Shown here in pieces: positions 24,113-39,936 of a DNA stretch of 64,000 nucleotides. Position 1 is the stretch's first letter. The number at the start of each line of letters is the position of its first letter. Source of the stretch: Ornithinibacillus bavariensis (GTDB lineage: Bacteria > Bacillota > Bacilli > Bacillales > Amphibacillaceae); contig NZ_BORP01000002.1 in assembly GCF_018333235.1 (NCBI RefSeq), forward strand, positions 310,001 to 374,000, in the 5' to 3' direction. Under the pieces are notes generated by a model. The model worked only from the letters and a program-made list of their open reading frames with translations, made no database searches and was not told where the DNA came from. Position numbers and translations under genes: made by a program.

Positions 24113-24937
24113 ATGAAACTATACCTATCAGTTGATATGGAAGGAATAACCGGCTTACCTGATTACACTTATGTTAGCGCTTCCATGCATAATTATGAGC
24201 GTGCCCGTAAAATAATGACTGACGAGACGAATTATGTCATTGGTGCCGCATTTAAGAACGGCTGTAGTGAAGTGTTAGTAAATGATAGTCACATGAAAAT
24301 GAATAATATACTGATTGATCAATTACATCCAGATGCACAACTAATTACAGGAGACGTGAAAACGTATTCCATGGTTCATGGTCTGGATGATAGTTTTTCT
24401 GGCGCAATGTTCATAGGTTATCATTCACGTGCTGGTATGCCGGGAGTTATGTCACACTCGATGATCCATATGGTCCGAAATTTTTATGTTAATGACCTAC
24501 AGGTTGGAGAGCTTGGTATGAATGCATTTGTTGCAGGTCATTATGGTGTTCCAATTTTGCTTGTTTCTGGAGATGACCAAACGGCAATAGAAGCTGAGGA
24601 GCTTATTCCTAATGTTACTACTGCTATTGTCAAACAAGCTATATCACGCTCTGCAACAAAGAGTTTAACCCCTAAAAAAGCAGGGGAACTTTTACAAGAA
24701 AAGGTCAAGCAAGCAATAACATACCGTGATCAAGTCGAGCCTCTTATTCCACCAACAAACCCAACCATTCGTGTGGAATTTGTTAATTATGGTGCAGCGG
24801 AGTGGGCAAGCATGATGCCTGGAACGGAAATTATTCCGGGTACAACAATGGTTCAATATCAGGCCAAGGACATGCTTGAAGCATATCGAGCGACACTTGT
24901 CATGATTGAATTAGCCTATAACACTAAATATGCATAA
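24113..24937 (+). CDS. dppA: D-aminopeptidase DppA (M55)
   Basis: A zinc D-aminopeptidase that releases D-amino acids such as D-Ala from peptides. The 274-residue protein keeps all family metal ligands and active residues at the B. subtilis positions: D8 and E10 (SVDMEG), H60 (NDSH), H104 (GYH) and E133 (VGELGM). There is no signal peptide, so it acts in the cytoplasm on imported wall peptides. It is the first gene of a dpp-ykf cluster inserted between murAA and spoIID; AAGGGGACATGTT precedes the ATG. Confidence 0.93.
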   Translation: MKLYLSVDMEGITGLPDYTYVSASMHNYERARKIMTDETNYVIGAAFKNGCSEVLVNDSHMKMNNILIDQLHPDAQLITGDVKTYSMVHGLDDSFSGAMFIGYHSRAGMPGVMSHSMIHMVRNFYVNDLQVGELGMNAFVAGHYGVPILLVSGDDQTAIEAEELIPNVTTAIVKQAISRSATKSLTPKKAGELLQEKVKQAITYRDQVEPLIPPTNPTIRVEFVNYGAAEWASMMPGTEIIPGTTMVQYQAKDMLEAYRATLVMIELAYNTKYA

Positions 24938-24995
24938 ACTTCCAGAGCTACTTACTTCGTAAAAGATTAATATGTCAAAACTGGGGAGAACGAAT

Positions 24996-25799
24996 TTGAA
25001 ATCATTAACAGAAACAATACAAAAAGTAGTCGATGATGCTGGAGGTTTATGGGGAATTTCCTTACTAGACTTAGATACCAATGATAGCTGGGAGCTTAAT
25101 GAGCACGAGCTTTTTTATGCAGCAAGTGTGATAAAGGTTCCGATAATGATAGCGGCTTTTGCTGCTAGCCATAATGGGGAAATGGAGCTTAGCAAAAAAG
25201 TAGTTTTAAAGCGAGAGGATATCGTTGGCGGGTCCGGGGTTTTACAGTATATGACCCCGGGTACAAGTGTTGCGATATATGATCTCATCACATTGATGAT
25301 TATTCAAAGTGATAACACAGCTACCAACTTATTAGTCGATTTAATTGGAACAGAAAAAATTCAACAAGAGATGGAGAATATTGGGTTGGAGAAGAGCTGT
25401 TATTATCACAAAATGATGATTGGTTCAGTTGATCGAAAGGAATTCAATCAAATTACTGCTGCAGAGATGACAATGATGTTAAAGAAACTTGTGACGGGTA
25501 AAATAGTCTCTATTCATGCCTGTGAACAGATGATAGATATCATGAAAAAACAGCAAATCCGTCATACCCTACCGAGTAAAATAGAATTAATTGATGGACC
25601 AATTATTGGTACTTTAAAGGAATTTGAAATAGCTCACAAGACTGGAAATGTTTTAGGTATTCGCCATGATATTGGCATTTTCTACGTTGGGCAAAGAAAA
25701 ATGATAGCTTCTATTCTTTCAAAGGGTGTAGGGGAAATTGATTCATTAGAGGCGTTTGGACATATTGGATTAGAAATATATCGCTTTCTTAAGCAATAA
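24996..25799 (+). CDS. Leaderless SxxK serine hydrolase, class A beta-lactamase fold
   Basis: The 267-residue protein has the three motifs of the penicillin-recognising fold: S44-x-x-K47 (AASVIKVP), S105-D106-N107 and K215-T216-G217. The class A deacylating motif ExxLN (Glu166) is missing from the expected omega-loop, where GSVDRKEFNQIT stands. No signal peptide is present. It is therefore more likely a cytoplasmic D,D- or L,D-peptide hydrolase or amidase than a resistance enzyme. The start is probably TTG 24996, supported by TGGGGAG; an ATG at 24972 lacks a site. It lies between dppA and dppB, a position empty in B. subtilis. Confidence 0.8.
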   Translation: MKSLTETIQKVVDDAGGLWGISLLDLDTNDSWELNEHELFYAASVIKVPIMIAAFAASHNGEMELSKKVVLKREDIVGGSGVLQYMTPGTSVAIYDLITLMIIQSDNTATNLLVDLIGTEKIQQEMENIGLEKSCYYHKMMIGSVDRKEFNQITAAEMTMMLKKLVTGKIVSIHACEQMIDIMKKQQIRHTLPSKIELIDGPIIGTLKEFEIAHKTGNVLGIRHDIGIFYVGQRKMIASILSKGVGEIDSLEAFGHIGLEIYRFLKQ

Positions 25800-25915
25800 A
25801 CATAAATCCATAAGCGCTGTTATTGAATAAATAATTAAGAAGAATCATAGCTTATCTTTAGAGAATTCTACATTATTTGCGCTAGCCAAGCGTAAGAATA
25901 CAGGAGTTGGGGGCA

Positions 25916-26848
25916 ATGCTTCGCTACATATTAAAACGATTATTAATCATGATCCTTACGTTATGGATTATTATTACGCTGACATTTGTACTAATGACAT
26001 CCATCCCTGGGTCACCATTTACTAGTGATCAGACGTCCAATGAAACGGTTCAACAAAATCTTGAAAAGCACTACAATCTAGATAAACCAAAGTATATGCA
26101 ATACCTACTTTATTTAAAGTCAATCGTAACATTAGATTTTGGACCATCTATTAAACAACCAAACCAGACGGTGAATGACTTACTTGGAAGAGGGTTCCCA
26201 ATATCCTTTGAGCTTGGAATTGTTACAGTTATTGTTGCAGTAATATCTGGGATCACGTTAGGGGTATTAGCTGCACTACGGCATAACGGGATTATTGATT
26301 ATTTAGCGATGGGTATTGCAGTTCTTGGTATTTCTATCCCAAACTTCATACTGGCAACATTGCTTATCCAAAAGCTGGCGGTAGACTGGGAAATATTCCC
26401 TGTTGCAACCTGGGCGAGTCCAATGCATATGGTTCTTCCCGTTCTAGCACTGGCGACGGGACCAATGGCTATTATAGCAAGGTTAACTAGATCAACCATG
26501 CTAGAGGTGTTAACACAGGACTATATAAAAATGGCACGCGCCAAAGGCTTAGCACCCTGGAAAATTATCATAAAACATGCACTTCGAAATGCCTTAATGC
26601 CTGTAATCACAATTATGGGAACCCTACTTGCAGGTATATTGACGGGAACGTTTGTTATTGAACAAATATTTGCCATACCGGGAATGGGTAAGTATTTTGT
26701 GGAGAGCATTAATCACCGTGATTATCCCGTCATTATGGGAACTACTGTATTTTATAGTGCGTTTTTGATTATCATGCTTTTTCTCGTGGATATTGCCTAT
26801 GGATTCGTTGACCCAAGAATTAAAGTAACCAAGAAGGAAGGGGAATAG
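25916..26848 (+). CDS. dppB: Dipeptide/murein-peptide ABC permease DppB
   Basis: One of two membrane subunits of a peptide importer. The 310-residue protein has an N-terminal helix, an external loop with SIKQPNQTV, and five further helices. The EAA-type loop that contacts the ATPase (TRSTMLEVLTQDYIKMARAKG) follows residue 190. ATG 25916 follows CAGGAGTTGGGGGC. It heads the transporter genes dppBCD, which are nearly contiguous. Confidence 0.9.
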   Translation: MLRYILKRLLIMILTLWIIITLTFVLMTSIPGSPFTSDQTSNETVQQNLEKHYNLDKPKYMQYLLYLKSIVTLDFGPSIKQPNQTVNDLLGRGFPISFELGIVTVIVAVISGITLGVLAALRHNGIIDYLAMGIAVLGISIPNFILATLLIQKLAVDWEIFPVATWASPMHMVLPVLALATGPMAIIARLTRSTMLEVLTQDYIKMARAKGLAPWKIIIKHALRNALMPVITIMGTLLAGILTGTFVIEQIFAIPGMGKYFVESINHRDYPVIMGTTVFYSAFLIIMLFLVDIAYGFVDPRIKVTKKEGE

Positions 26849-26851
26849 GCC

Positions 26852-27808
26852 ATGAAAAGTAATCAACATCCCCATCACATAGCAGCAAAGGAGCAGATAC
26901 ATGATGATTGGTTTAGATGGCGAGAAAAGGACAAATCAGAGCAGGAGCAAGTATCAAGGCCATCTCTATCCTATTGGAAGGATGCTTGGCGGAGGCTTCG
27001 TAAAAATAAATTAGCTATGCTGGGACTAGTTTTCCTAATAGTACTCATTATCATGGCAATATTCGGGCCAATCCTATCTCCATATGAAGTCAATAAAGGG
27101 GTACTATCCGACCAGTACCAAGCCCCATCTAGTGAACACTGGTTTGGAACAGACTCACATGGCCGGGACGTATTTACACGTACATGGTATGGAGCAAGAA
27201 TCTCTTTATTTGTTGGATTTATGGCTGCGCTAATCGATGTAACGATTGGAATCGTATGGGGAGGTATCTCGGGCTATAAAGGCGGACGCACGGATAACAT
27301 CATGATGCGAATAATTGAAATCCTATATGGCTTACCTTACCTTCTAGTCGTAATTTTGTTACTAGTAGTTCTTGGTCCCAGCCTTTCTACTATTATTGTT
27401 GCTTTGACGGTAACAGGCTGGGTAGGAATGGCCAGGATTGTACGAGGGCAGGTCATGCAAATTAAAAATTACGAGTATGTTCTCGCATCGAAATCATTTG
27501 GAACAAAAACATCACGCATTATCCGGCGAAATTTATTGCCAAACACGATGGGGCCTATTATTGTACAAATGACTTTAACCGTACCTTCTGCAATTTTTGC
27601 AGAAGCCTTCCTAAGCTTTATTGGTCTTGGAATTCAGGCTCCGTATGCAAGCTGGGGTGTCATGGCTAATGATTCACTTGGAGCGATATTATCAGGGAAC
27701 TGGTGGACATTATTCTTCCCTGCATTTTTCATCTCGTTTACTATGTTTGCATTTAACGTACTAGGAGACGGATTACAGGATGCACTTGATCCGAAACTAA
27801 GGAAGTAG
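26852..27808 (+). CDS. dppC: Dipeptide/murein-peptide ABC permease DppC
   Basis: The second membrane subunit of the importer. The 318-residue protein carries the OppC-type N-terminal extension (about 1-50), a first helix (NKLAMLGLVFLIVLIIMAIF), the HWFGTDSHGRDVFTR motif near 95 and the EAA loop near 200-220. It starts three bases after dppB stops, with GGAAGGGGAATAGGCC as ribosome site. Confidence 0.92.
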   Translation: MKSNQHPHHIAAKEQIHDDWFRWREKDKSEQEQVSRPSLSYWKDAWRRLRKNKLAMLGLVFLIVLIIMAIFGPILSPYEVNKGVLSDQYQAPSSEHWFGTDSHGRDVFTRTWYGARISLFVGFMAALIDVTIGIVWGGISGYKGGRTDNIMMRIIEILYGLPYLLVVILLLVVLGPSLSTIIVALTVTGWVGMARIVRGQVMQIKNYEYVLASKSFGTKTSRIIRRNLLPNTMGPIIVQMTLTVPSAIFAEAFLSFIGLGIQAPYASWGVMANDSLGAILSGNWWTLFFPAFFISFTMFAFNVLGDGLQDALDPKLRK

Positions 27809-27817
27809 GTGCTAATA

Positions 27818-28825
27818 ATGGAAAAAATACTAGAGGTACAAGACCTACATGTTAGGTTCACGACCTATGGTGGGACCGTTCAGGCGGTCAGGGGCGTAGA
27901 CTTCCATATACATAAAGGAGAAACATTGGCTATTGTGGGTGAATCTGGCTGTGGAAAAAGTGTTACATCCAATGCCATTATGCGACTTATTCCAAATCCA
28001 CCTGGAAAAATAACAAAGGGGAAGGTTCTCTTTAAAGGTCAGGATTTAACAAAGTTAACGGAGAAAAAGATGCGTTCCATTCGTGGTGTCGATATCTCAA
28101 TGATATTCCAAGATCCAATGACTGCTCTGAATCCTACTTTAACGATAGGAACCCAGCTAGTTGAGGGATTGAAGCAACATCGGAAGGTCTCTGACAGCAT
28201 AGCAATGAAAAAAGCGTTGGAAATGATGCAACTCGTTGGAATTCCTAATCCTGAAGAGCGAATGAAGCAGTACCCACATCAATTTAGTGGCGGAATGCGT
28301 CAGCGAATTGTGATAGCAATCGCATTAATTTGTGAACCAGAACTACTTATAGCGGATGAACCAACAACTGCCTTAGACGTTACTATTCAGGCCCAAATTC
28401 TAGAGCTCTTTGAAAAAATCCAGGAAGTTACTGGTGTATCAATTATATTAATTACTCATGACTTGGGTGTGGTCGCAAAGATTGCTGACCGAATTGCTGT
28501 AATGTATGCAGGAAAAATCATTGAGACGGGAACAAAGCGTGAGATTTTTTATCAGCCACAGCATCCATATACACAAGGATTACTAAATTCTGTTCCCCGG
28601 TTAGATACGAAGGGAAAATTGCAACCCATTAACGGAACACCACCAGATTTATTCTCACCTCCTCTAGGATGTCCATTTACATCGAGATGCCCTTTAGCGA
28701 TGGAGGTGTGCAATAAAGTTTACCCAGACTCCACTAGGCTAAGTGATTCACATGCTGTGGATTGTTGGCTACAGGATGAGCGGGCGAAAAAACTACTGGC
28801 CACGATGGTCACAAACAAAAGGTAA
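27818..28825 (+). CDS. dppD: Peptide ABC transporter ATPase DppD
   Basis: ATP-binding subunit of the importer, 335 residues. Walker A is GESGCGKS near 40, the signature is FSGGMRQR, Walker B is LLIADEPTTALD, and the H-loop is ITHDLG. The C-terminal oligopeptide-transporter domain carries the conserved GCPFTSRCPLAMEVC cysteines. ATG 27818 is preferred; a GTG at 27809 immediately after the dppC stop is an alternative. The second ATPase of the pair is encoded at the end of the cluster. Confidence 0.92.
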   Translation: MEKILEVQDLHVRFTTYGGTVQAVRGVDFHIHKGETLAIVGESGCGKSVTSNAIMRLIPNPPGKITKGKVLFKGQDLTKLTEKKMRSIRGVDISMIFQDPMTALNPTLTIGTQLVEGLKQHRKVSDSIAMKKALEMMQLVGIPNPEERMKQYPHQFSGGMRQRIVIAIALICEPELLIADEPTTALDVTIQAQILELFEKIQEVTGVSIILITHDLGVVAKIADRIAVMYAGKIIETGTKREIFYQPQHPYTQGLLNSVPRLDTKGKLQPINGTPPDLFSPPLGCPFTSRCPLAMEVCNKVYPDSTRLSDSHAVDCWLQDERAKKLLATMVTNKR

Positions 28826-28837
28826 GGGGGATAAAGG

Positions 28838-30484
28838 ATGAAAAAGCTTCTCTTTTTACTAATGGCAGTATTTACGATATTTGTTTTAGCTGCATGTACT
28901 GCCAATGAAAATGCAGGTAAATCAGACGAGACAGAAAACAAAGGTAATGAACCAGGAGATTCAAAAGATGTGGAAAATGGAAAGGTTCTTAAATTGAATA
29001 ATGGCACAGAACCTACATCACTTGATCCATCTATTGGATTTGATGCGGTATCATGGGATCCGCTTAACAACTTAATGGAAGGACTAACCCGCCTAGATTC
29101 AGAACATAAAGCTGCTGAAGGGGTAGCGGAGAAATGGGATATATCAGAAGATGGTCTTACCTATACCTTCCAAATCCGTGAAAATGCAAAATGGTCAAAT
29201 GGTGACCCTGTCGTAGCTAAGGACTTTGAATATGCATGGAAATATATGCTTAACCCTGATACAGCATCACCAGCAGCATTCCTAGCCTATTTTATAAAAG
29301 GGGCTGAGGACTATAACAGTGGAGACGGATCAGTTGATGATGTTATGGTCACAGCAAAGGATGAGAAAACATTAGAGGTCGTGTTAGAGCAACCAACAGG
29401 ATTTTTTCTGGATGTCTTAACGAATCCTGCGTTTTTCCCAATTAATCATAAGGTTGCCGAAGAGAATCCTAATTGGCATGCTGAAGCAGATACGTTTGTT
29501 GGAAACGGTCCGTTTAAATTAGATTCATGGAAACATGATGAAGAGATGGTATTTGTGAAAAATGAACATTACTGGGATGTTGATTCTGTGAAATTAGATA
29601 AAGTCCATTTTGCTATGGTCAATGATTCAAACACACAGTATCAGATGTTCCAAAGTGGAGAGCTTGACACTGCAAGCATCCCACCAGAATTATCGGATGA
29701 ATTAATCAATGGAGATAATGTATTCATTGGTCCCTATGGAGGTCTAGAATTTTACCGTTTTAATTTAACAATGGAACCATTCCAAAATAAGAAGATTCGA
29801 CAAGCATTTTCGCTTGCGGTAAACCGTGAGGATATTGCGAAGTACGTCGTGAAAAACGGTGTAGAGCCAGCTTACGGCTTCGTCTCCCCGGGGTACACTA
29901 GTCCAACTGGTACAGATTTCCGTGAAAAAAATGGTGATCTTGTATCTTATGACCCAGAAAAGGCAAAACAATTACTGGAAGAAGGAATGAAAGAAGAAGG
30001 CTATAATGAACTACCACCAATCACGTTATCGTATAACACAAATGATACAAATAAAGCAGTTGCAGAGGCACTTCAAAACATGTTTATGGATAATTTAGGT
30101 GTTGAAGTAACACTAGAAAACCAAGAATGGAATGTATTTTCTGAAGCTCAAAAGGCATTAGAGCTTCAATTCTCTCGTAGCTCGTTTATTAATGATTATA
30201 ATGATCCAGTTAACTTCCTTGAAAGCTTTATTACAGATTCCTATATGAACCGTACTGGGTTTTCGAGTAAGGAATACGATGAGCTAATTACTAAGGGAAA
30301 AACAGAAACCAATGAGGAAAAACGTTGGGAGGCATTATACGAAGCAGAAAGAATGCTAGCTGATGAGATGATCGCGATACCAATTCGTTATTACAACACA
30401 GTAGTATTAGAGGCGGACGGTGTTGAAGGTATTTTACGTCACCCGGTAGGTTATTTTGATTTGAAATATGCAGATAAGAAGTAA
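28838..30484 (+). CDS. dppE: Peptide-binding lipoprotein DppE
   Basis: Extracellular substrate-binding protein of the importer, 548 residues, of the SBP family 5. A lipoprotein signal peptide ends at LAAC (Cys 20), followed by a flexible, acidic linker. Typical family stretches are LNNGTEPTSLDPSIG and NREDIAKYVV. AAGGGGGATAAAGG precedes the ATG. A terminator-like hairpin downstream may make the ykf genes less expressed than the transporter. Confidence 0.92.
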   Translation: MKKLLFLLMAVFTIFVLAACTANENAGKSDETENKGNEPGDSKDVENGKVLKLNNGTEPTSLDPSIGFDAVSWDPLNNLMEGLTRLDSEHKAAEGVAEKWDISEDGLTYTFQIRENAKWSNGDPVVAKDFEYAWKYMLNPDTASPAAFLAYFIKGAEDYNSGDGSVDDVMVTAKDEKTLEVVLEQPTGFFLDVLTNPAFFPINHKVAEENPNWHAEADTFVGNGPFKLDSWKHDEEMVFVKNEHYWDVDSVKLDKVHFAMVNDSNTQYQMFQSGELDTASIPPELSDELINGDNVFIGPYGGLEFYRFNLTMEPFQNKKIRQAFSLAVNREDIAKYVVKNGVEPAYGFVSPGYTSPTGTDFREKNGDLVSYDPEKAKQLLEEGMKEEGYNELPPITLSYNTNDTNKAVAEALQNMFMDNLGVEVTLENQEWNVFSEAQKALELQFSRSSFINDYNDPVNFLESFITDSYMNRTGFSSKEYDELITKGKTETNEEKRWEALYEAERMLADEMIAIPIRYYNTVVLEADGVEGILRHPVGYFDLKYADKK

Positions 30485-30710
30485 AGAGAGTAGTCGGGGC
30501 TGAGTGGCTTATGGGATTCGTGGTTTTCGAAGAGATATTATGACAAACTTCTATCCGATATCGATCTGTCGTTCAAGGATAACTAATCCAGTTGAACATT
30601 AGTAGCAGATTGAAACGATGTCATCATATGGATGTAGGGTATCAACCATTTTTGAAATCTATTTGTCCTTTAAGACTAGCAAAACTGACACACCACTACT
30701 GTATTACTAA

Positions 30711-30748
30711 GGAATGGCTCACTCATGAAAGGTGAGCCGCTCCTTTTT
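30711..30748 (+). terminator. Terminator between dppE and ykfA
   Basis: GGCTCAC and GTGAGCC, extended by GGA/TCC, form a stem around a loop of about 8 bases, followed by CTTTTTCATT. It splits the cluster into a transporter part and an enzyme part. The preceding 226 bases hold no recognisable gene. Confidence 0.7.
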
Positions 30749-30780
30749 CATTCATGAATACGAAGAAAGAGGGTCATAAA

Positions 30781-31704
30781 ATGCTTCTTCCAAAAGCCTT
30801 AAAAAAAGGTGATCTAATAGGTGTAATTGCCCCTGCAAGCCCTCCTGATATGAAACGACTTCAACAAGCTATTCCCTTTTTTAAGAGCATGGGTCTTCAT
30901 GTGAAACTGGGACAAAATATTGATAAAGTATATGGCTATTTAGCTGGCACAGATGAAGAGCGATTAGCTGATTTTCATCACATGATTGCGGATGATGATG
31001 TAAAGGCAATCATTTTCGCAAGAGGGGGCTACGGTACTAGCCGTATAGCAAATGTCATCAATTACGATTTAATCGCAAAACATCCAAAAATCATCTGGGG
31101 CTACAGTGATATTACTTATTTACATATTGCAATAAGGCAGAAAACAGAACTCGTTACCTTCCATGGGCCAATGCTAGCGTCTGATATAGCAGATCCGAAA
31201 TTCGATACATTATCTGCACAAATGTTTCAGCAATTATGGGAACCTACTGCACTACGCTATGATGAAGCATTTTCCGAACTAAATGTGCTAGTTGAAGGAA
31301 GAGGGGGAGGTCCTCTAGTTGGTGGGAATTTATCTTTAATATCGAGCACCTTAGGAACAGACTTTGAGATAGACACAAATGGGAAAATATTATTAATGGA
31401 GGATATTGGTGAGGTACCATATCAAGTGGACTCCATGCTGAATCAATTGAAGCTTGCTGGAAAGTTAGGAGAAGCGGCAGGAATAATCGTAGGTGATTTT
31501 GCTGATGCAAAACCGAAGAATAAACCCTCGCTATTATTAGACGAAGTCCTTCAGCATTATTTAGGGGATTTAGAGTGCCCCGTCATGACCGGATTTAAAA
31601 TTGGACATTGTTTTCCACATTTTGCAATCCCGCTTGGTGTGACTGCATTATTAGATACAAAAGATAAAAGTTTGTCTGTCATGCCGGGGGTGATTAGGGA
31701 ATGA
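30781..31704 (+). CDS. ykfA: LD-carboxypeptidase family protein YkfA (S66)
   Basis: A serine peptidase of the LdcA family that trims the terminal D-Ala from murein tetrapeptides. The 307-residue protein has VIAPASPP near 15-22, the nucleophile S109 in WGYSDIT, the glutamate in LLMEDIGE near 205 and a C-terminal histidine in FKIGHCFPH. No signal peptide, so it works on imported peptides. ATG 30781 follows AGAGGGTC. An ATG 27 bases upstream falls in the terminator tail. Its stop overlaps ykfB by four bases. Confidence 0.9.
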   Translation: MLLPKALKKGDLIGVIAPASPPDMKRLQQAIPFFKSMGLHVKLGQNIDKVYGYLAGTDEERLADFHHMIADDDVKAIIFARGGYGTSRIANVINYDLIAKHPKIIWGYSDITYLHIAIRQKTELVTFHGPMLASDIADPKFDTLSAQMFQQLWEPTALRYDEAFSELNVLVEGRGGGPLVGGNLSLISSTLGTDFEIDTNGKILLMEDIGEVPYQVDSMLNQLKLAGKLGEAAGIIVGDFADAKPKNKPSLLLDEVLQHYLGDLECPVMTGFKIGHCFPHFAIPLGVTALLDTKDKSLSVMPGVIRE

Positions 31705-32795
31705 AAATCCAACAAATTGAAACATATCTGGCAAAGGTTCCATTAAAAAAAGCATTTAAAACAGCCTTGCGAACAGTCACCATTGCGGAAACCATTATTG
31801 TAAAAATTACCTGTGATAACGGCAAGGTCGGCTACGGGGAGGCTCCTCCAACCCATGTAATAACAGGGGAATCAATAGCAAGTATTTCTTTTGCAATTAA
31901 TGAAGTATTAAGACCGGCTTTAATCGGAATGTCATGCCTTGACCGGGAACAATTATTTGCAAAAATTAATAGTCTATTAGTTGGTAACACCAGTGCAAAA
32001 GCTGCAGTAGATATGGCAATTTATGATTGTGTAGCACAGCAAGCGGAAATGAGCCTTAGACAATATTTAGGTGGGTACCAGTCACAAATCGAAACAGATT
32101 ATACGGTCAGTGTTAATAGTCCAGAGGAGATGGCGAGTGATGCAGAAGAGTATGTAAGAGATGGTTTTTCAATGTTGAAAATAAAAGTAGGAAAAGATGA
32201 AATTGATACGGATATACAACGGATACAAGCAATTCGAAAGCAAGTCGGATCAAATGTGAAGATTAGACTAGATGCAAATCAAGGCTGGGAACCAAAAGCA
32301 GCCGTACGTGCCATTCAAAAGATGGAAGACCTTGGCTTAAATATTGAATTCATTGAGCAACCAGTAAAGGCTCATGATATAAAAGGCTTAAAATTTGTCA
32401 CAAGTCATACATATATCCCAATAATGGCAGATGAAAGTGTCTTTTCTGCTCGTGATGCAGAAAATGTTCTCGAACAGGCTGCGGCAGATCTAATTAATAT
32501 TAAACTCATGAAGGCAGGAGGCATTCACGAGGCGTTAAAGATTGCTAATCTAGCGAATGTGTTCGGTATCTCCTGTATGGTTGGTAGTATGATCGAATCT
32601 AAAATAGGAATTACTGCTGCAGCACATTTTGCAGCAAGTCAACCAAATATCGCTTACTATGATTTCGATGCCCCACTTATGCTGTCAGGTGATTTAATTG
32701 ACGGTGGTATACAGTACAAAGGGAGTCGGATTGTCTTTGGCGATAGCTTTGGATTAGGCATTCAAGGGCTTCGTGAGGAGTATTTAGTGAAGTAA
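31701..32795 (+). CDS. ykfB: L-Ala-D/L-Glu epimerase YkfB
   Basis: An enolase-superfamily epimerase that converts L-Ala-D-Glu from murein into L-Ala-L-Glu, which ordinary peptidases can use. The 364-residue protein has the acid/base lysines K160 and K162 (LKIKVGK) and K268 (NIKLMKAGG). The magnesium ligands are D191 (LDANQGW), E219 (FIEQPV) and D244 (MADESV). These are the same numbers as in B. subtilis YkfB. Coupled to ykfA through an ATGA overlap. Confidence 0.95.
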   Translation: MKIQQIETYLAKVPLKKAFKTALRTVTIAETIIVKITCDNGKVGYGEAPPTHVITGESIASISFAINEVLRPALIGMSCLDREQLFAKINSLLVGNTSAKAAVDMAIYDCVAQQAEMSLRQYLGGYQSQIETDYTVSVNSPEEMASDAEEYVRDGFSMLKIKVGKDEIDTDIQRIQAIRKQVGSNVKIRLDANQGWEPKAAVRAIQKMEDLGLNIEFIEQPVKAHDIKGLKFVTSHTYIPIMADESVFSARDAENVLEQAAADLINIKLMKAGGIHEALKIANLANVFGISCMVGSMIESKIGITAAAHFAASQPNIAYYDFDAPLMLSGDLIDGGIQYKGSRIVFGDSFGLGIQGLREEYLVK

Positions 32796-32847
32796 TTATC
32801 CAGACATTCATATGCAAGAAATAAAACTCCTGAAAGGGGAAAAACAA

Positions 32848-33792
32848 ATGTACAATCAAACGTTCCTTCCATTCCCAGATAAATTTCATGTCGTGGCTGT
32901 CCAGGTTGCTACAGTATGGACTGCCCCAGATTCACCAAGAGAAATGGATCGACTAGCCATTACTAATCCAACAAATATAAGAGCTTGGCTTGAAAATCAA
33001 ACTTATGAAGACAAAGTGAATTTATGTGATGATAATCGCGTACAAACTCAAGCACTCTATGGTGAGGCGGTACTTATCCAGGAAGTGCGGGGAGGTTGGG
33101 CCAAGATAACAATCCCTGCTCAGGCAACTAAGAAAAATGAACAAGGCTATCCCGGTTGGATTCCTATATGCCAATTAGCCGAAGTAGAAAAGAAAAATTG
33201 GCAGAAAGAGAAGACAGCAGCTATCAGTGTGAAGCACATATGGCTTAAAAATGAACAAGGAGAAAGAGAATTGGAGCTTAGCTTTATGACCTGTCTTCCT
33301 GTTTTAAATGTGCATGCTGATAGCGTTGAAGTGGTGACCCCTAAAGGAGTGGGATATCTGCCAAAAGAAGCTGTAAAGATATTCCCAACAGAAATTGGTG
33401 GGGAAAAAGGTGGGGGAGAAGCCATTATCAGAGCTGGCGAGAACTTTATCGGATTGGATTATCTATGGGGTGGGATGAGTTCCTTTGGTTTTGACTGTTC
33501 GGGATTCGCTTATACAATGCATAAAGCGAATGGCTATGAGATTAGTAGAGATGCTTCCGATCAGTCTGAACATGGTCAGGAAATTCCTTTTGATAAGGTA
33601 ATGCCAGGGGACTTACTCTTCTTTGCCTATCAGGAAGGGGACAGGAAAGGATATGTCCACCATGTGGGGTTTTACTACGGTGACGGAAGGATGCTTCATT
33701 CCCCTCATACAGGAAAAGGAATAGAAATTACTAATTTGAAAGATACAAAATACGAGAAAGAGCTTTGTATTGCAAGGCGGTACTGGTTCTAG
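32848..33792 (+). CDS. ykfC: Gamma-D-glutamyl-diamino acid endopeptidase YkfC (NlpC/P60)
   Basis: It cuts between gamma-D-Glu and the diamino acid of murein peptides that have a free N-terminal L-Ala. The 314-residue protein has two SH3-like regions (about 15-110 and 120-180) and a C-terminal NlpC/P60 domain. That domain carries C217 (FDCSGF), H272 (HHVGFY) and H287 (HSPHTG). No export signal is visible after the start. ATG 32848 follows AAAGGGGAAAAAC; an upstream in-frame ATG at 32812 lacks a site. Confidence 0.92.
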
Positions 33793-33806
33793 GAGGTGCA
33801 AGGAAC

Positions 33807-34817
33807 ATGGGAGCAGAAAAAATATTAGAGGTAAAAAATTTAAAGAAGCATTTTAATCTTGGAAAAAACCGAGTATTAAAGGCAGTGAACGATGTAACCT
33901 TCCATGTGAATAAAGGTGAGACCTTTGGACTGGTGGGGGAGTCTGGCTGTGGAAAATCAACAATCGGTAGAACAATACTCGGACTATATAACAAGACAGC
34001 TGGTGATGTGTTTTTTGACGGGAAATCCGTTCATACCTTACCAGAAAAGGAGCTCTTTAAGCTTCGGCAGCGCATGCAGATGATTTTTCAGGACCCCTAT
34101 GCATCATTAAATCCAAGATCAACAGTACGTGAGGTAATTTCAGAACCAATGGAGGTTCATAAGCTCTTTCGAACCAAAAAAGAACAAAATGACCGGGTTT
34201 ACCAATTACTTGAGGAGGTTGGCTTAAACCGTGATCATGCAAATCGCTATCCCCATGAGTTTAGTGGAGGACAGCGTCAACGCATTGGTATTGCAAGGGC
34301 CTTAGCACTTAATCCAGATTTTATTATTGCTGATGAACCTATATCCGCGCTTGATGTTTCCGTTCAAGCACAGGTAGTTAATCTCTTAAAACAGCTTCAA
34401 GAAGAAAAAGGATTAACCTTCCTATTTATCGCCCATGACCTTTCTATGGTCAAACAAATTTCAGACCGTATAGGTGTTATGTATTTAGGAAACATGGTGG
34501 AGCTAACGGAAAGTGAAAGTCTTTATGAAAATCCATTGCATCCTTATACGCAAGCACTTCTCTCTGCAATCCCGATTCCAGACCCTGATATTGAGGAAGC
34601 AAGGGAGCGGATCATTTTACAGGGAGAACTACCCAGTCCAATTAACCCGCCAAGTGGATGTGTCTTCCGAACACGGTGCCCTTTCGCAATGGAAATATGT
34701 ACTAGAGAAAAATCTCAATGGCAGGAGGTAGAGAACAATCACTATGTTGCATGTCATTTATATAATGAAAAAGTAAATAAGCAGAAGGACTCAGATTTAG
34801 TCGTGAATATACGGTAG
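33807..34817 (+). CDS. ykfD: Peptide ABC transporter ATPase (YkfD/DppF type)
   Basis: Second ATPase of the importer, 336 residues. Walker A GESGCGKS near 46, signature FSGGQRQR, Walker [14 protein letters not shown]-loop IAHDLS, and the C-terminal oligopeptide domain with [18 protein letters not shown] 33807 follows AGGAGGTGCAAGGA. The position after ykfC matches B. subtilis ykfD. With DppD it would complete a functional DppBCD-F/E importer. The cluster ends here with a terminator. Confidence 0.92.
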
Positions 34818-36575: not shown

Positions 36576-37493
36576 ATGAAAGAGGAAAACAAAGCGCCAA
36601 AAAAAGGTTGGCAAGGGATTTTCCGTAAGAAATGGTTTTTCCCAGCTGTTTACTTAACAATTGCTGCTGTTCTATTAGGAGTTGTTGTTTGGTATCAGAA
36701 TTTGGATAATCAATTATCTAAAGTTGGGGATGACCAAAATTTAAGTGACAATTATACACCAAATCCACATGATCCAGACTCAGAGGCTGTAATGGGATCG
36801 CAGGAAGTAATTAAGTTTCCGGTAGCGGACCCAGAGCAAGCAGAAATCGTAACGAAATTCTTTGATTACGACGCATCTGAGGAAGATCGTGAAAGCGCAC
36901 TGATCCTTCATAACAACCGCTATTATCAAAGCACAGGGGTAGATATCGTTTATCCAAGTGGAGAGTCCTTTGATGTAGTAGCAGCTTTAAGCGGACAAGT
37001 TATGGAAGTAAAAGAGGATCCGTTACTAGGTAATGTTGTTATTCTATCACATGAAAATGGGGTAGCAACCTATTATGCTAGTCTTGGAGAGGTCGGAGTA
37101 AAGCAAGGTGACGAAGTAAAGCAAGGAGACGTTATTGGTAAAGCTGGAGATAATAAGTTTGGGCAAAATATCGGAACACATTTACATTTTGAAATCAGAA
37201 AAGATGAACAGGTGTTTAACCCAGAGGAATATTTCAACCAGCCAGTAACAAAGCTTGATTCGGAGTCTGAGGATGTTTCAGAGGAGCAGGATACATCAAG
37301 TGTAAACTCAGAGGACGAAGATTCAAAGAACAAGTCTAGTGATGTGGATAAGGAAGAGGCAACGGAATCAGAATCAGATACGGAAAAGTCTAAAGAAGAA
37401 TCTAATAATAAGGATAATTCAAAGGATGACTCTAAAAAGGAATCGAAAGAAGATTCGGTAGAGGATACTGATTCAACTGACTCAGACGCTTAA
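36576..37493 (+). CDS. spoIIQ: SpoIIQ, forespore LytM-domain channel protein
   Basis: SpoIIQ sits in the forespore membrane and binds SpoIIIAH from the mother cell to form the intercellular channel. The 305-residue protein has one membrane helix (about 20-41) and a LytM/M23 domain (about 105-220). The first zinc ligand of active M23 enzymes is replaced (STGVD instead of HxGxD) while HLHFEI is kept. It is therefore probably not a peptidase, as in B. subtilis. The last 75 residues are an extremely acidic, Ser/Lys/Glu/Asp-rich tail, slightly longer than in B. subtilis. GAGGTGATGAATAA precedes the ATG. Confidence 0.93.
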   Translation: MKEENKAPKKGWQGIFRKKWFFPAVYLTIAAVLLGVVVWYQNLDNQLSKVGDDQNLSDNYTPNPHDPDSEAVMGSQEVIKFPVADPEQAEIVTKFFDYDASEEDRESALILHNNRYYQSTGVDIVYPSGESFDVVAALSGQVMEVKEDPLLGNVVILSHENGVATYYASLGEVGVKQGDEVKQGDVIGKAGDNKFGQNIGTHLHFEIRKDEQVFNPEEYFNQPVTKLDSESEDVSEEQDTSSVNSEDEDSKNKSSDVDKEEATESESDTEKSKEESNNKDNSKDDSKKESKEDSVEDTDSTDSDA

Positions 37494-37566: not shown

Positions 37567-37641
37567 CATTCAACATATTTTTAGTACATGATTCGTCAAA
37601 TATCCCATCAATTCACGGGTTAATAAAAAATATGTCGAACG
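37567..37641. repeat. Widely spaced inverted repeat upstream of the aimR-like gene
   Basis: CATTCAACATATTTTT (37567-37582) and the reverse complement of 37626-37641 (CGTTCGACATATTTTT) agree at 14 of 16 positions, with 43 bases between the arms. It lies about 180 bases before the aimR-like start. AimR proteins of phages bind inverted repeats with a long spacer, so this is a candidate operator. That link is inference. The rest of the gap (37549-37817) has no clear -35/-10 pair. Confidence 0.55.
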
Positions 37642-37817
37642 AATAGGCATTGTTAACTAGGAATTATATGTTACTATTAAATTGAAAAAATTACTAGAGT
37701 AGAAACTAGTTCTATGAATCGAGATGATTTTTCCCACATCGACTGAATAAAACTTCTATATTTTTATAATGTGATTTATAACAATCCTATTCACTATTAA
37801 AATAGAGGCTTGAAAGG

Positions 37818-38867
37818 ATGGAACCCTCAAAGATGAATTACGGAAACCCTAGTCTACTTCCAGAGTTGATGACAACCATCTCAGATAGTACCGAACTAAC
37901 TATTGGACAAATTATTGTAATGCTATCACAGGAGCATACAGAGCAAGAAGTGTTAGAGCTTACCCGCAAGTATTGCTTACAGTCTACCTCAACTGAAATA
38001 CAGAAAAAAGGGATGGAATTCTTATACATAAATGGATTCTATGAAGACCTTAAACTTCTGATTATTAAAAATCTACAATCACCAAATGATTCGAATCGAA
38101 AATGGGCAGAGGTTTATCAAATCGTGATGGACCGTCGTGCAAGAAGATACTCCGCAGGCCAAATGCGCACCCATCTAATTGAAATGAGAACATCAGACCC
38201 CGAGCTAAGATGCCTAATTGAACTACTAATTGTGGACACCTATTTTAACCAACTAGATTTCGGAAAAATTGCTAACTTATTAGATAAGCAGCATGAGTTA
38301 TTTGATTCAATTCAGGACAACTTTATGCTTTCATCCTTTAATCTTCGGCTTTATCAGAAATTATTCATCTATTATTGGAAACGAAATGAACTAATCATGG
38401 CAAGAAAATACGCTTTTCGCGCATTAAATCAAACGAATAGTCCCGAGACAAAAGTAAATCTGCATGTCAACCTAGGACTTAGTTATACCTTTGATACGTA
38501 CTATCAAGGTATGTATCACTTAAAAGAAGCACTAAAGATTGCAAAACAATACAATTTCAATAAAAGAATATACTCCATTGAAAATAACAATATTGCATTT
38601 TTATCGGCACATTTCAAACGACCAGCCAATATCGTGACAGATGATGTTAGTGAACAAGCCCATTTAGAAATCGCCAAAGGAAATAATGAAAAAGCAATTG
38701 AACTACTCGAACAAGTTGATTTATCGAGTCCATTTAAGATGTATTATATGGGCTTAGCAAAGCAGGATAAGAATTTATTATCCACGTCATGTAAGATGTT
38801 TGTTGAAAGAAGTGATTACTTCTTTAGTAGACTTCCAATGAATGCGATAAAAAACCTCAATCGTTAG
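37818..38867 (+). CDS. AimR-family peptide-sensing regulator (arbitrium receptor type)
   Basis: A 349-residue all-helical repeat protein of the AimR family, the receptors that bind AimP peptides and control lysis-lysogeny in Bacillus phages. Family-like stretches include the ELTRKYCLQS region near 49-58, EVYQIVMDRRARRYSAGQ near 98, and a C-terminal block with AHLEIAKGNNEKAIELLEQV and FKMYYMGLAKQDK. The N-terminus is shorter than in phage AimR (about 380-390 residues) by about 25-30 residues, so part of the usual helix-turn-helix domain is missing. An in-frame stop at 37803 excludes an upstream start. AGAGG lies nine bases before ATG 37818. No phage genes surround it. A secreted-peptide gene follows at 76 bases. 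Confidence 0.82.
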   Translation: MEPSKMNYGNPSLLPELMTTISDSTELTIGQIIVMLSQEHTEQEVLELTRKYCLQSTSTEIQKKGMEFLYINGFYEDLKLLIIKNLQSPNDSNRKWAEVYQIVMDRRARRYSAGQMRTHLIEMRTSDPELRCLIELLIVDTYFNQLDFGKIANLLDKQHELFDSIQDNFMLSSFNLRLYQKLFIYYWKRNELIMARKYAFRALNQTNSPETKVNLHVNLGLSYTFDTYYQGMYHLKEALKIAKQYNFNKRIYSIENNNIAFLSAHFKRPANIVTDDVSEQAHLEIAKGNNEKAIELLEQVDLSSPFKMYYMGLAKQDKNLLSTSCKMFVERSDYFFSRLPMNAIKNLNR

Positions 38868-38894
38868 TACGGAGATTCATTTTGCAATTTCGGT

Positions 38895-39105
38895 ATGATG
38901 GGATTCAACTTTGAAATTATACTAAGAAGAAAGGAGGAATAATATGAAGAGTCTTAAGCCTTTCCTAACTTCTGTATGCTTAACTACGATAATTCTTTTT
39001 TCATTCACTCCAGTTGGTATGATGGTGCATAGGGACCCAGAATATGGGGACATCGATTAATAAATATTATGTAAAATTTACGCATAAAAAGTTGAATCCA
39101 TTCAT
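38895..39105. repeat. Inverted repeat flanking the aimP-like gene
   Basis: ATGATGGGATTCAACTTT (38895-38912) lies just before the ribosome site of the small peptide gene. The reverse complement of 39088-39105 (ATGAATGGATTCAACTTT) lies just after it. They match at 16 of 18 positions, including 12 in a row (GGATTCAACTTT). The arms could pair in the mRNA or bind a dimeric regulator in DNA. Both possibilities are inference. Confidence 0.6.
38944..39060 (+). CDS. AimP-like secreted signalling peptide precursor
   Basis: A 38-codon gene beginning MKSLKPFLTSVCLTTIILFS and ending VHRDPEYGDID. It has a basic start, a hydrophobic core of about 15 residues and a short polar tail, the layout of Phr, NprX and AimP pro-peptides exported by Sec and trimmed to a C-terminal signal peptide. 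AAAGGAGGA seven bases before the ATG is a near-perfect ribosome site. It follows the AimR-family gene directly and is closed by a strong terminator, as aimP follows aimR in phages. The mature peptide cannot be assigned from sequence alone. Confidence 0.72.
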   Translation: MKSLKPFLTSVCLTTIILFSFTPVGMMVHRDPEYGDID

Positions 39106-39109
39106 ATAT

Positions 39110-39152
39110 AACCAAAAATTCTATGTTTTGTAGGATTTTTGGTTTTTTTTTT
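39110..39152 (+). terminator. Terminator after the aimP-like gene
   Basis: AACCAAAAATTCTA pairs with TAGGATTTTTGGTT (one G-U pair) around TGTTTTG and is followed by a run of T. Confidence 0.88.
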
Positions 39153-39575
39153 GAGGAGTTACGATCACACGTAGAAATAAGAAATTAGACCACTAAGTAT
39201 TTTTTCGAATGAACGGCATCATGTAAAAAACGAATAAAAGTTACACTAAAATAAAAAACTTCTTGTCCCATATGGGATTCAATGTTTTTTATTCATATTC
39301 CTGGCTAGTAAATAATAAAATGTTACAAACCAAGCATTCAGTTAGTCTGAGGTGAGAGCTTCCGTGGCTCTTCTTTGCTGCATCATATTTGCTTGATTAC
39401 ATATTGAATCGTTATCACAAACAGGATTAATCTTTTTATACATTCTCGCCTATTTTTCATATTGTTCGACATTGAATTATTGCAACAGTTACCGAATATG
39501 TAACAAAATCGAATAAACATAAATCTAATAAGCCACTGATTAACCATCTTTAATCGAAAGGATGGAAACTCGAAA
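39153..39575. other. Intergenic region upstream of spoIIID with RTTCRACWTW motifs
   Basis: About 420 AT-rich bases without a supported long gene. GTTCGACATT occurs at 39464-39473. ATTCAACATA at 39631-39640, just past this stretch, touches the spoIIID ribosome site; it is identical to the left arm of the repeat before the aimR-like gene. A sigma-E promoter for spoIIID is expected here but I cannot place it. Confidence 0.4.
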
Positions 39576-39614
39576 ATGGAATTTCGTCATTTTTCGAATC
39601 ACCTAGTCTCATGA
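39576..39614 (+). CDS. Possible short upstream ORF before spoIIID (usd-like)
   Basis: A 12-codon frame, MEFRHFSNHLVS, with AAAGGATGG (39557-39565) about ten bases before its ATG. In B. subtilis a small translated frame called usd precedes spoIIID and its translation is needed for spoIIID expression. This frame is in the corresponding place but is very short and shows no sequence match I can claim. It overlaps an inverted repeat (CGAAAATG...CATTTTTCG). Confidence 0.3.
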   Translation: MEFRHFSNHLVS

Positions 39615-39654
39615 ATAACACCTCAGAAATATTCAACATAGGGAGGCGAAAGGT

Positions 39655-39936
39655 GTGCACGATTACATCAAAGAAAGAACTATCAGGATAGGTGAACATG
39701 TTGTCGAAACGAGAAAAACTGTCCGTGTGATAGCAAAGGAATTTGGTGTTTCTAAAAGCACAGTCCATAAAGATTTAACCGAACGATTACCGGAAATAAA
39801 CCCAGAGTTAGCACAAAAGGTAAAGGAAATTCTAGAATACCACAAATCCATCCGACACTTACGTGGAGGAGAAGCAACACGCAAAAAATATAAAAGCCCC
39901 GAGCAAACAACAGAAGATACAGCAATCCTAAAGTAA
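39655..39936 (+). CDS. spoIIID: SpoIIID, mother-cell transcription regulator
   Basis: SpoIIID activates and represses sigma-E genes and prepares the switch to sigma-K. The 93-residue protein has a helix-turn-helix (about 24-45, TVRVIAKEFGVSKSTVHKDL) and a basic C-terminal helix (HLRGGEATRKKYK), both typical. The start is GTG 39655, eight bases after GGGAGG. The B. subtilis protein has a very similar length. A terminator follows at 40052. Confidence 0.96.
   Translation: MHDYIKERTIRIGEHVVETRKTVRVIAKEFGVSKSTVHKDLTERLPEINPELAQKVKEILEYHKSIRHLRGGEATRKKYKSPEQTTEDTAILK

Follow-up and report, generated by a model that had tools for sequence, protein, structure and literature searches.

Between the sporulation genes spoIIQ and spoIIID of Ornithinibacillus bavariensis lies a gene for an AimR-family receptor that has lost its DNA-binding domain, followed by a 38-codon gene that ends in a conserved octapeptide. 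Both genes belong to the 64,000-nucleotide stretch that we analyzed (the window; contig NZ_BORP01000002.1, positions 310,001 to 374,000), and coordinates below are those of the window. An earlier note, made from the letters of the window, had described an arbitrium-like pair that might time gene expression at the engulfment or mother-cell stage. We favor, with somewhat better than even confidence, a different explanation: a host-owned, Spo0A-controlled, Rap-like pheromone switch that tunes sporulation via a protein partner.

An AimR receptor without the DNA-binding domain

Profile searches placed the receptor in the AimR family, as the earlier note had proposed from knowledge of AimR. The match to PF22871 (AimR) had an expect value (E) of 3.1e-82 and 276.6 bits against a curated cutoff of 26.7, and that to NF038310 an E of 1.7e-59 and 201.7 bits against a cutoff of 70. 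AimR was the sole Pfam family listed for the receptor at E values up to 1, with no RapH_N three-helix bundle; a search of the organism's own genome (assembly 96.7% complete) found no PF18801 (RapH_N) at all. The predicted structure has the tetratricopeptide repeat (TPR) fold of AimR, and by sequence and predicted fold the receptor is an AimR protein. The residues by which AimR holds its peptide include E300, D360, R228, and N206 (PMC9232636); counted by hand on the alignment, E300 corresponds to E274 here (29/29) and D360 to D328 (at least 90%).

The N terminus of AimR, residues 1 to 49, is a three-helix helix-turn-helix (HTH) DNA-binding domain (PMC9232636). The predicted model of the window receptor has about 20 residues before the first repeat helix, with the predicted local distance difference test score (pLDDT) below 50 throughout up to residue 19. 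The earlier note had begun the receptor at 37818 (37818-38867, 349 codons), and the frame is shut by a stop 4 codons before that position (353 codons in all). GAAAGG abuts the ATG at 37818 directly, with no spacing. The start is more likely the ATG at 37833, giving 344 aa, because most of the closest relatives in the genus alignment have an AAAGG-type site about 10 bases before this methionine. No plus-strand open reading frame (ORF) of at least 30 aa was found between spoIIQ and aimR, so the missing domain is not encoded on a separate upstream ORF.

The other rows of the receptor alignment likewise appear to lack the N-terminal domain, except the phage-type row L002. This alignment alone is no proof of a missing domain, since its starts were chosen by script as those nearest to 344 aa (L027 is absent from it and present in the later counts). 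A test independent of start choice asked how many residues the open frame could hold between the preceding stop and the first repeat, with a threshold of 44. There was room for fewer than 44 residues in 70 of 80 rows from the spoIIQ locus, 20 of 23 from a second locus at speB, and all 25 other domain-free rows, and in only 1 of 22 rows labeled phage-type. These labels, like the calls of HTH presence or absence, were assigned by length; L179_2354, labeled HTH owing to its start, sits in the domain-free clade. In a careful tree of 53 receptors, the 36 chromosomal domain-free ones fall on one side of a single branch (100/99) and the 17 others on the opposite side; a quick tree of 153 rows agrees with this split (99). 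L128, L138, and L143, deliberately excluded from the one-clade check, are among the 17 others; because they also lack the DNA-binding domain and are placed inside the phage-type branch, the domain was probably lost at least twice. These three and L139 and L140 make up a domain-free AimR set within that branch, probably an independent loss, and four of the five have a candidate peptide gene.

The description as an arbitrium-like pair therefore stands in part: the AimR family, the gene order, and the propeptide are present, but the arbitrium mechanism does not apply, because residues 1 to 49 of AimR have no counterpart here. We consider classical arbitrium, in which AimR would control an aimX-like target by binding DNA close to aimP, very unlikely. 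The aimR-aimP order is that of phage phi3T and the family profiles match, yet the domain content contradicts such a switch. No convincing aimX-like ORF was found before spoIIID (operators and noncoding targets were not searched), and no phage gene was recognized by eye among window ORFs of at least 100 aa (no library scan of those ORFs was made), in line with the earlier note.

The peptide gene and its predicted pheromone

In the RRNPPA group, a TPR receptor comes with a small propeptide gene, and an adjoining downstream propeptide with an export-type N terminus and a C-terminal pheromone is a trait of arbitrium. Both were found here: the 38-codon ORF stands 76 bases after the receptor, behind AAAGGAGG, as the earlier note described, and the hydrophobic N-terminal segment that it reported recurs in the frames of relatives; export is predicted only from sequence. 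A strict scan, for a small downstream ORF with a hydrophobic N terminus, a ribosome site, and a DPxxG-type end, detected a peptide frame in 42 of 61 syntenic loci and in 0 of 16 loci with neither flanking gene. A relaxed scan added four loci, raising the number with a DPxxG-type downstream frame to 46 of 61: in L067 and L104 the propeptides are long, built of repeats, and hydrophobic at the N terminus, while L111 and L122 have no signal sequence.

All loci with a strict match together gave 43 octapeptides. Their D, P, and, mostly, G carry no weight, because the DP..G-type pattern used to find the frames puts them there. At the free positions (n = 43), position 4 is Y or L in 35, position 6 is D or E in 32, and position 8 is D or G in 36. 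Tandem copies of the octapeptide occur in several propeptides: five in L059 and L060, two in L063, L074, and L086, and nine each in L067 and L104, those of L104 in two variants. Several pheromone copies per propeptide are known for Rap (PMC11343458) and for the AimR subfamily (PMC9765709). Over 11 genus-level sequences, the octapeptide had a ratio of nonsynonymous to synonymous polymorphism (pN/pS) of 0.15 and the signal part one of 0.64. This difference is the mark of a peptide gene under selection and, as far as sequences can tell, points to a translated and processed pheromone.

A conserved Spo0A-box core upstream of aimR

In the genus alignment, the region upstream of aimR contains one conserved block, TGTCGAACGAtT. 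It includes TGTCGAA, the core of the Spo0A box (PMC3485338). Of 66 spoIIQ-locus receptors (L091, with two receptor copies, is counted twice), 62 have the core on the coding strand in the 450 bases before the gene, compared to 3.5 in shuffled sequences; upstream of spoIIID it occurs in 1 of 61 and upstream of mbl in 2 of 59. A second scan covered the remaining loci, many from the same genomes as the first, and found the core in 44 of 52 spoIIQ-locus rows; it occurred in 4 of the 23 other domain-free ones and in none of the 22 labeled phage-type. A perfect 0A core also lies about 120 bases upstream of spoIIAA. The earlier note's link to sporulation is borne out by this core and by the place of the pair among sporulation genes; its proposed timing is not, as the conserved core before aimR suggests a signal of the initiation stage.

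The 12-base block TGTCGAACGAWT has two copies in the 3.47-Mb genome; the other (G000:C4:120655-120666, L214) lies between genes that by eye encode a YqeG-like phosphatase and a membrane transporter or NADH-dehydrogenase-like protein. A sigma-70 scan found 11 promoter-like sites against 11.1 in shuffles, which is no excess, and the extended -10-like sequence downstream of the box is not among them. The genus alignment also suggested GGATTCAA, between aimR and aimP, as an operator; it was present in only 5 of 61 loci and was rejected.

Distribution and inheritance

Of 137 named relatives, the best 80 were used, the nearest being Ornithinibacillus and Paucisalibacillus. The receptor lies between spoIIQ (upstream) and spoIIID (downstream) in 61 of the 80; three have one of these genes in the sequence covered, and 16 have neither. 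An AimR match was found in 127 of the 159 genomes of the GTDB family (125 over the cutoff), among them 11 of 11 of the genus; SpoIIID was matched in 152 (151 over the cutoff), and the seven genomes with no SpoIIID match all lack AimR too. Across a broader set of 397 genomes from the order, 86 matched AimR, whatever its type. Where AimR is lacking and both flanking genes are present, nothing AimR-like lies between them (16/16 sites, from 20 stretches that also included one AimR-bearing control, one cut by a contig end, and two with no spoIIQ match). Receptor distances correlate with those of SpoIIQ (r = 0.79) and SpoIID (0.61), compared to 0.69 between SpoIIQ and SpoIID (58 of the 61 loci). Phage records gave eight matches, all of the phi3T type at about 24% identity, and plasmid records gave three distant ones.

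The shared synteny, the distances that track SpoIIQ and SpoIID, and the merely distant phage and plasmid matches fit a vertically inherited host gene and agree with the chromosomal, nonphage setting that the earlier note proposed. That the pair came in recently between the sporulation genes, as a prophage remnant or as mobile cargo, may come to mind because of the fame of AimR in phages, but we regard it as extremely improbable: the location is the same across many genera, the distances follow SpoIIQ and SpoIID, the eight phage matches are only about 24% identical, and the 16 empty sites are clean.

Domain-free receptors also occur elsewhere. A second conserved chromosomal one lies between speB and ywiB, in the order speE-speB-aimR-ywiB-argS (L109, L110, L118, L123, L125, and others), in Gracilibacillus, Pontibacillus, Sediminibacillus, Aquibacillus, and other genera. 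Since no motif peptide was found beside it, this receptor may respond to the pheromone that the spoIIQ locus produces. Pontibacillus and unnamed relatives carry two or three consecutive AimR genes at the speB locus (L124, L129, L131), and an array in genome G041 (L188) holds seven matches within 9 kb. The two receptor types can occur side by side in a cell: genome G002 (L197), from the same genus as the window, also encodes a 374-aa AimR, phage-like in length, which has a propeptide of its own. In another family, L182 to L184 (tagged SPO_MID) have an AimR-like receptor and a peptide gene, with a 0A-box core about 103 bases upstream of the receptor in two of them. Their apparent spoIIQ context proved to be a false match, the neighbor being by eye another M23-type protein beside an ftsX-like gene, and they were left out of the syntenic counts.

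A proposed pheromone switch on sporulation and its alternatives

In the explanation that we favor, Spo0A~P would act at the conserved 0A box and drive both aimR and the 38-codon gene. Sec would export the propeptide, trimming would leave about DPEYGDID, and an oligopeptide permease would take the peptide back up, to bind the TPR groove of the cytoplasmic receptor. Because the receptor has no DNA-binding domain, its output would have to pass through a protein partner, as for Rap. Most likely, the receptor would hold back one of the Spo0F/Spo0B/Spo0A relay components, or else some other regulator of early sporulation, and the peptide, that is, cell number, would release the restraint. The partner, the sign of the effect, activation by Spo0A, and the quorum response are thus elements that we infer. 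With neither the DNA-binding mode of AimR nor a recognized Rap bundle, the receptor would be left with a protein-binding surface under peptide control. Given the Spo0A-box core, the location among sporulation genes, and a Rap N-domain found in just 13 of the family's 159 genomes, the simplest model is that the sporulation relay is subject to a brake or feedback set by cell density.

Alternatively, the partner could itself bind DNA. A TPR-only receptor needs a partner, and the adjoining mother-cell regulator SpoIIID, syntenic in 61 of 80 loci, could be the one through which the receptor steers transcription and the pair tunes late gene expression. We judge this quite unlikely, as spoIIID occurs without aimR in 25 of 152 SpoIIID-positive genomes, other members of the domain-free clade lie at speB-ywiB or elsewhere and not beside spoIIID, and the Spo0A box indicates an earlier stage. 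It is also conceivable, if unlikely, that the peptide is sensed for another purpose at the onset of stationary phase, such as competence, biofilm formation, or polyamine or murein-peptide metabolism, rather than for sporulation itself. A Spo0A box would suit stationary-phase genes as well, a second domain-free receptor lies between speB and ywiB, and some spore formers have no aimR; the conserved location within a sporulation gene cluster and the lack of AimR from the seven genomes with no SpoIIID match speak for sporulation instead.

Several observations weigh against the Spo0A-controlled, Rap-like switch. The mechanism of Rap is not simply transferable, because the receptor has no recognized Rap three-helix bundle. 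Ten of the 80 spoIIQ-locus frames could hold at least 44 residues before the first repeat, some AimR chains (6s7i_B and 6hp3_A) align with the untrimmed model from residue 1, through its low-confidence first residues, and the peptide anchors R228 and N206 are not kept in the alignment with the window receptor. AimR is missing from 25 of the 152 SpoIIID-positive genomes, so aimR is not essential for sporulation, and the seven SpoIIID-negative genomes span only three genera. The 0A core is missing upstream of L102, L103, L111, and L122 in the first scan and from 8 of 52 spoIIQ-locus rows in the second (L015, L027, L030, L045, L195, L147, L150, and L190), the last three being all of the spoIIQ-locus rows of another family in that scan. 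The core is also found upstream of spoIIQ in 13 of 60 loci and upstream of speB-locus receptors in 4 of 16 (0 of 12 in the second scan), and no perfect core was found upstream of spoIIGA in the organism's own genome. The extended -10-like sequence also stands about as far from the box in many of 62 relatives, with a weak consensus only. The earlier note had named loss of the small frame in close relatives that keep the receptor as a refuting observation; among the 61 syntenic loci, the frame accompanies the receptor in 46, and neither scan detected one in the other 15. The residue before DP is R in the window, unlike the A of many relatives, which makes the processing site uncertain.

On a broader view, chances are about even that the receptor represents a third RRNPPA architecture: a domain-less AimR, core in halophilic Bacillaceae and controlled by Spo0A, that fills the role of Rap-Phr as a density checkpoint on sporulation via a protein target. 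If so, one family would comprise two sister branches: a communication receptor of the phage type and a pheromone system by which cells regulate sporulation. Sporulation in a large group of spore formers in which the Rap N-domain is mostly not found would have a probable quorum checkpoint, and many species a likely pheromone, open to synthesis and testing. The locus suggests that the role of AimR goes beyond that of a transcription factor of phages, and the origin of arbitrium can be approached from a chromosomal branch as well.

Features of the locus and its surroundings

The coordinates of the features are collected in Table 1. The flanks are sporulation genes, as the earlier note had it; the upstream one we take to be spoIIQ from knowledge of the family, with no library match behind the name. 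The terminator reported after the peptide gene is present as a hairpin of 16 pairs, only 3 of them G-C, with a T tail behind it.

Table 1. Coordinates of the aimR-aimP locus and its flanking genes in the window
Feature	Position	Strand	Remarks
spoIIQ, upstream flank	36576..37493	+	Syntenic in relatives
Spo0A-box core TGTCGAA (37633-37639) with conserved extension CGAAT	37633..37644	+	Core in 62/66 spoIIQ-locus receptors
Extended -10-like TGtTACTAT	37669..37677	+	32 bases after the box, aligned in the genus; putative promoter activity
Ribosome site of receptor, GAAAGGATGG	37812..37821	+	
aimR-like receptor	37833..38867	+	344 aa, TPR domain only, without DNA-binding domain
Ribosome site of peptide gene, AAAGGAGG	38930..38937	+	
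aimP-like propeptide gene	38944..39060	+	38 codons, hydrophobic N-terminal segment
Codons of predicted pheromone DPEYGDID	39034..39057	+	pN/pS, motif in relatives, tandem copies
Intrinsic terminator-like hairpin, then T run	39110..39144	+	
spoIIID, downstream flank	39655..39936	+	PF12116 match here, synteny

The roughly 400 bases before spoIIID (39240-39655) contain several blocks that are near-identical in 11 aligned rows (the window and 10 relatives), including the surroundings of its ribosome site, as if they formed a long regulatory leader. The sole Rfam match was a subthreshold L20_leader on the opposite strand. Directly upstream of spoIID, at 24113-34814, lies a dpp/ykf-like operon, assigned by eye, with genes for a peptidase, peptide permease parts, and epimerase-like and NlpC/P60 proteins.

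Comparison with known systems

Chromosomal AimR-like systems are already known. AimR relatives outside prophages appear in surveys (PMC9765709; PMC12700828), and the chromosomal systems of "Alkalihalobacilli" (subfamily 21) fall within the AimR clade of a sequence tree (PMC12700828, Extended Data legend). According to these surveys, almost 90% of nonprophage AimR genes have no propeptide, and Rap is the only RRNPPA member without an HTH, HTH loss being reported for Rap and subfamily 17 (PMC12700828). The published view, in which most chromosomal AimR genes have no peptide and eavesdrop on phages, needs some qualification in light of the peptide gene described here. The excerpts of both surveys make no mention of an AimR with a lost DNA-binding domain, of spoIIQ-spoIIID, or of Spo0A, and those of PMC10075063 none of an aimR locus between spoIIQ and spoIIID. 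In searches linking AimR to spoIIID, sporulation, Spo0A, or a chromosomal or nonphage setting, no description of this locus was found in the portions of text retrieved; within that scope, the lost domain, the Spo0A box, and the core-gene status were not found described. AloR-AloP of Paenibacillus are likewise chromosomal receptor-peptide pairs (PMC7425212), and a DPG motif is shared by peptides of AimR and those of subfamily 08, which is related to AloR (PMC12700828); unlike the receptor here, AloR and subfamily 08 are HTH-9TPR proteins (PMC12700828).

With the AimR-AimP arbitrium of SPbeta-type Bacillus phages, the pair shares the nine-TPR AimR fold with two peptide-anchor residues kept, a receptor gene followed by a propeptide gene with an export-type N terminus, and a short C-terminal pheromone. 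It differs in having no DNA-binding domain, in being a chromosomal core gene with a Spo0A-box core, and in its pheromone, a DPxxGxxx octapeptide, whereas the arbitrium peptide ends in RGA (PMC9232636). Rap-Phr of Bacillus resembles it in having a receptor with no HTH, an adjoining pheromone gene, a likely protein target, and a link to sporulation; what sets the present pair apart from Rap-Phr is a receptor with no match to the RapH_N three-helix bundle and with a TPR sequence of the AimR type.
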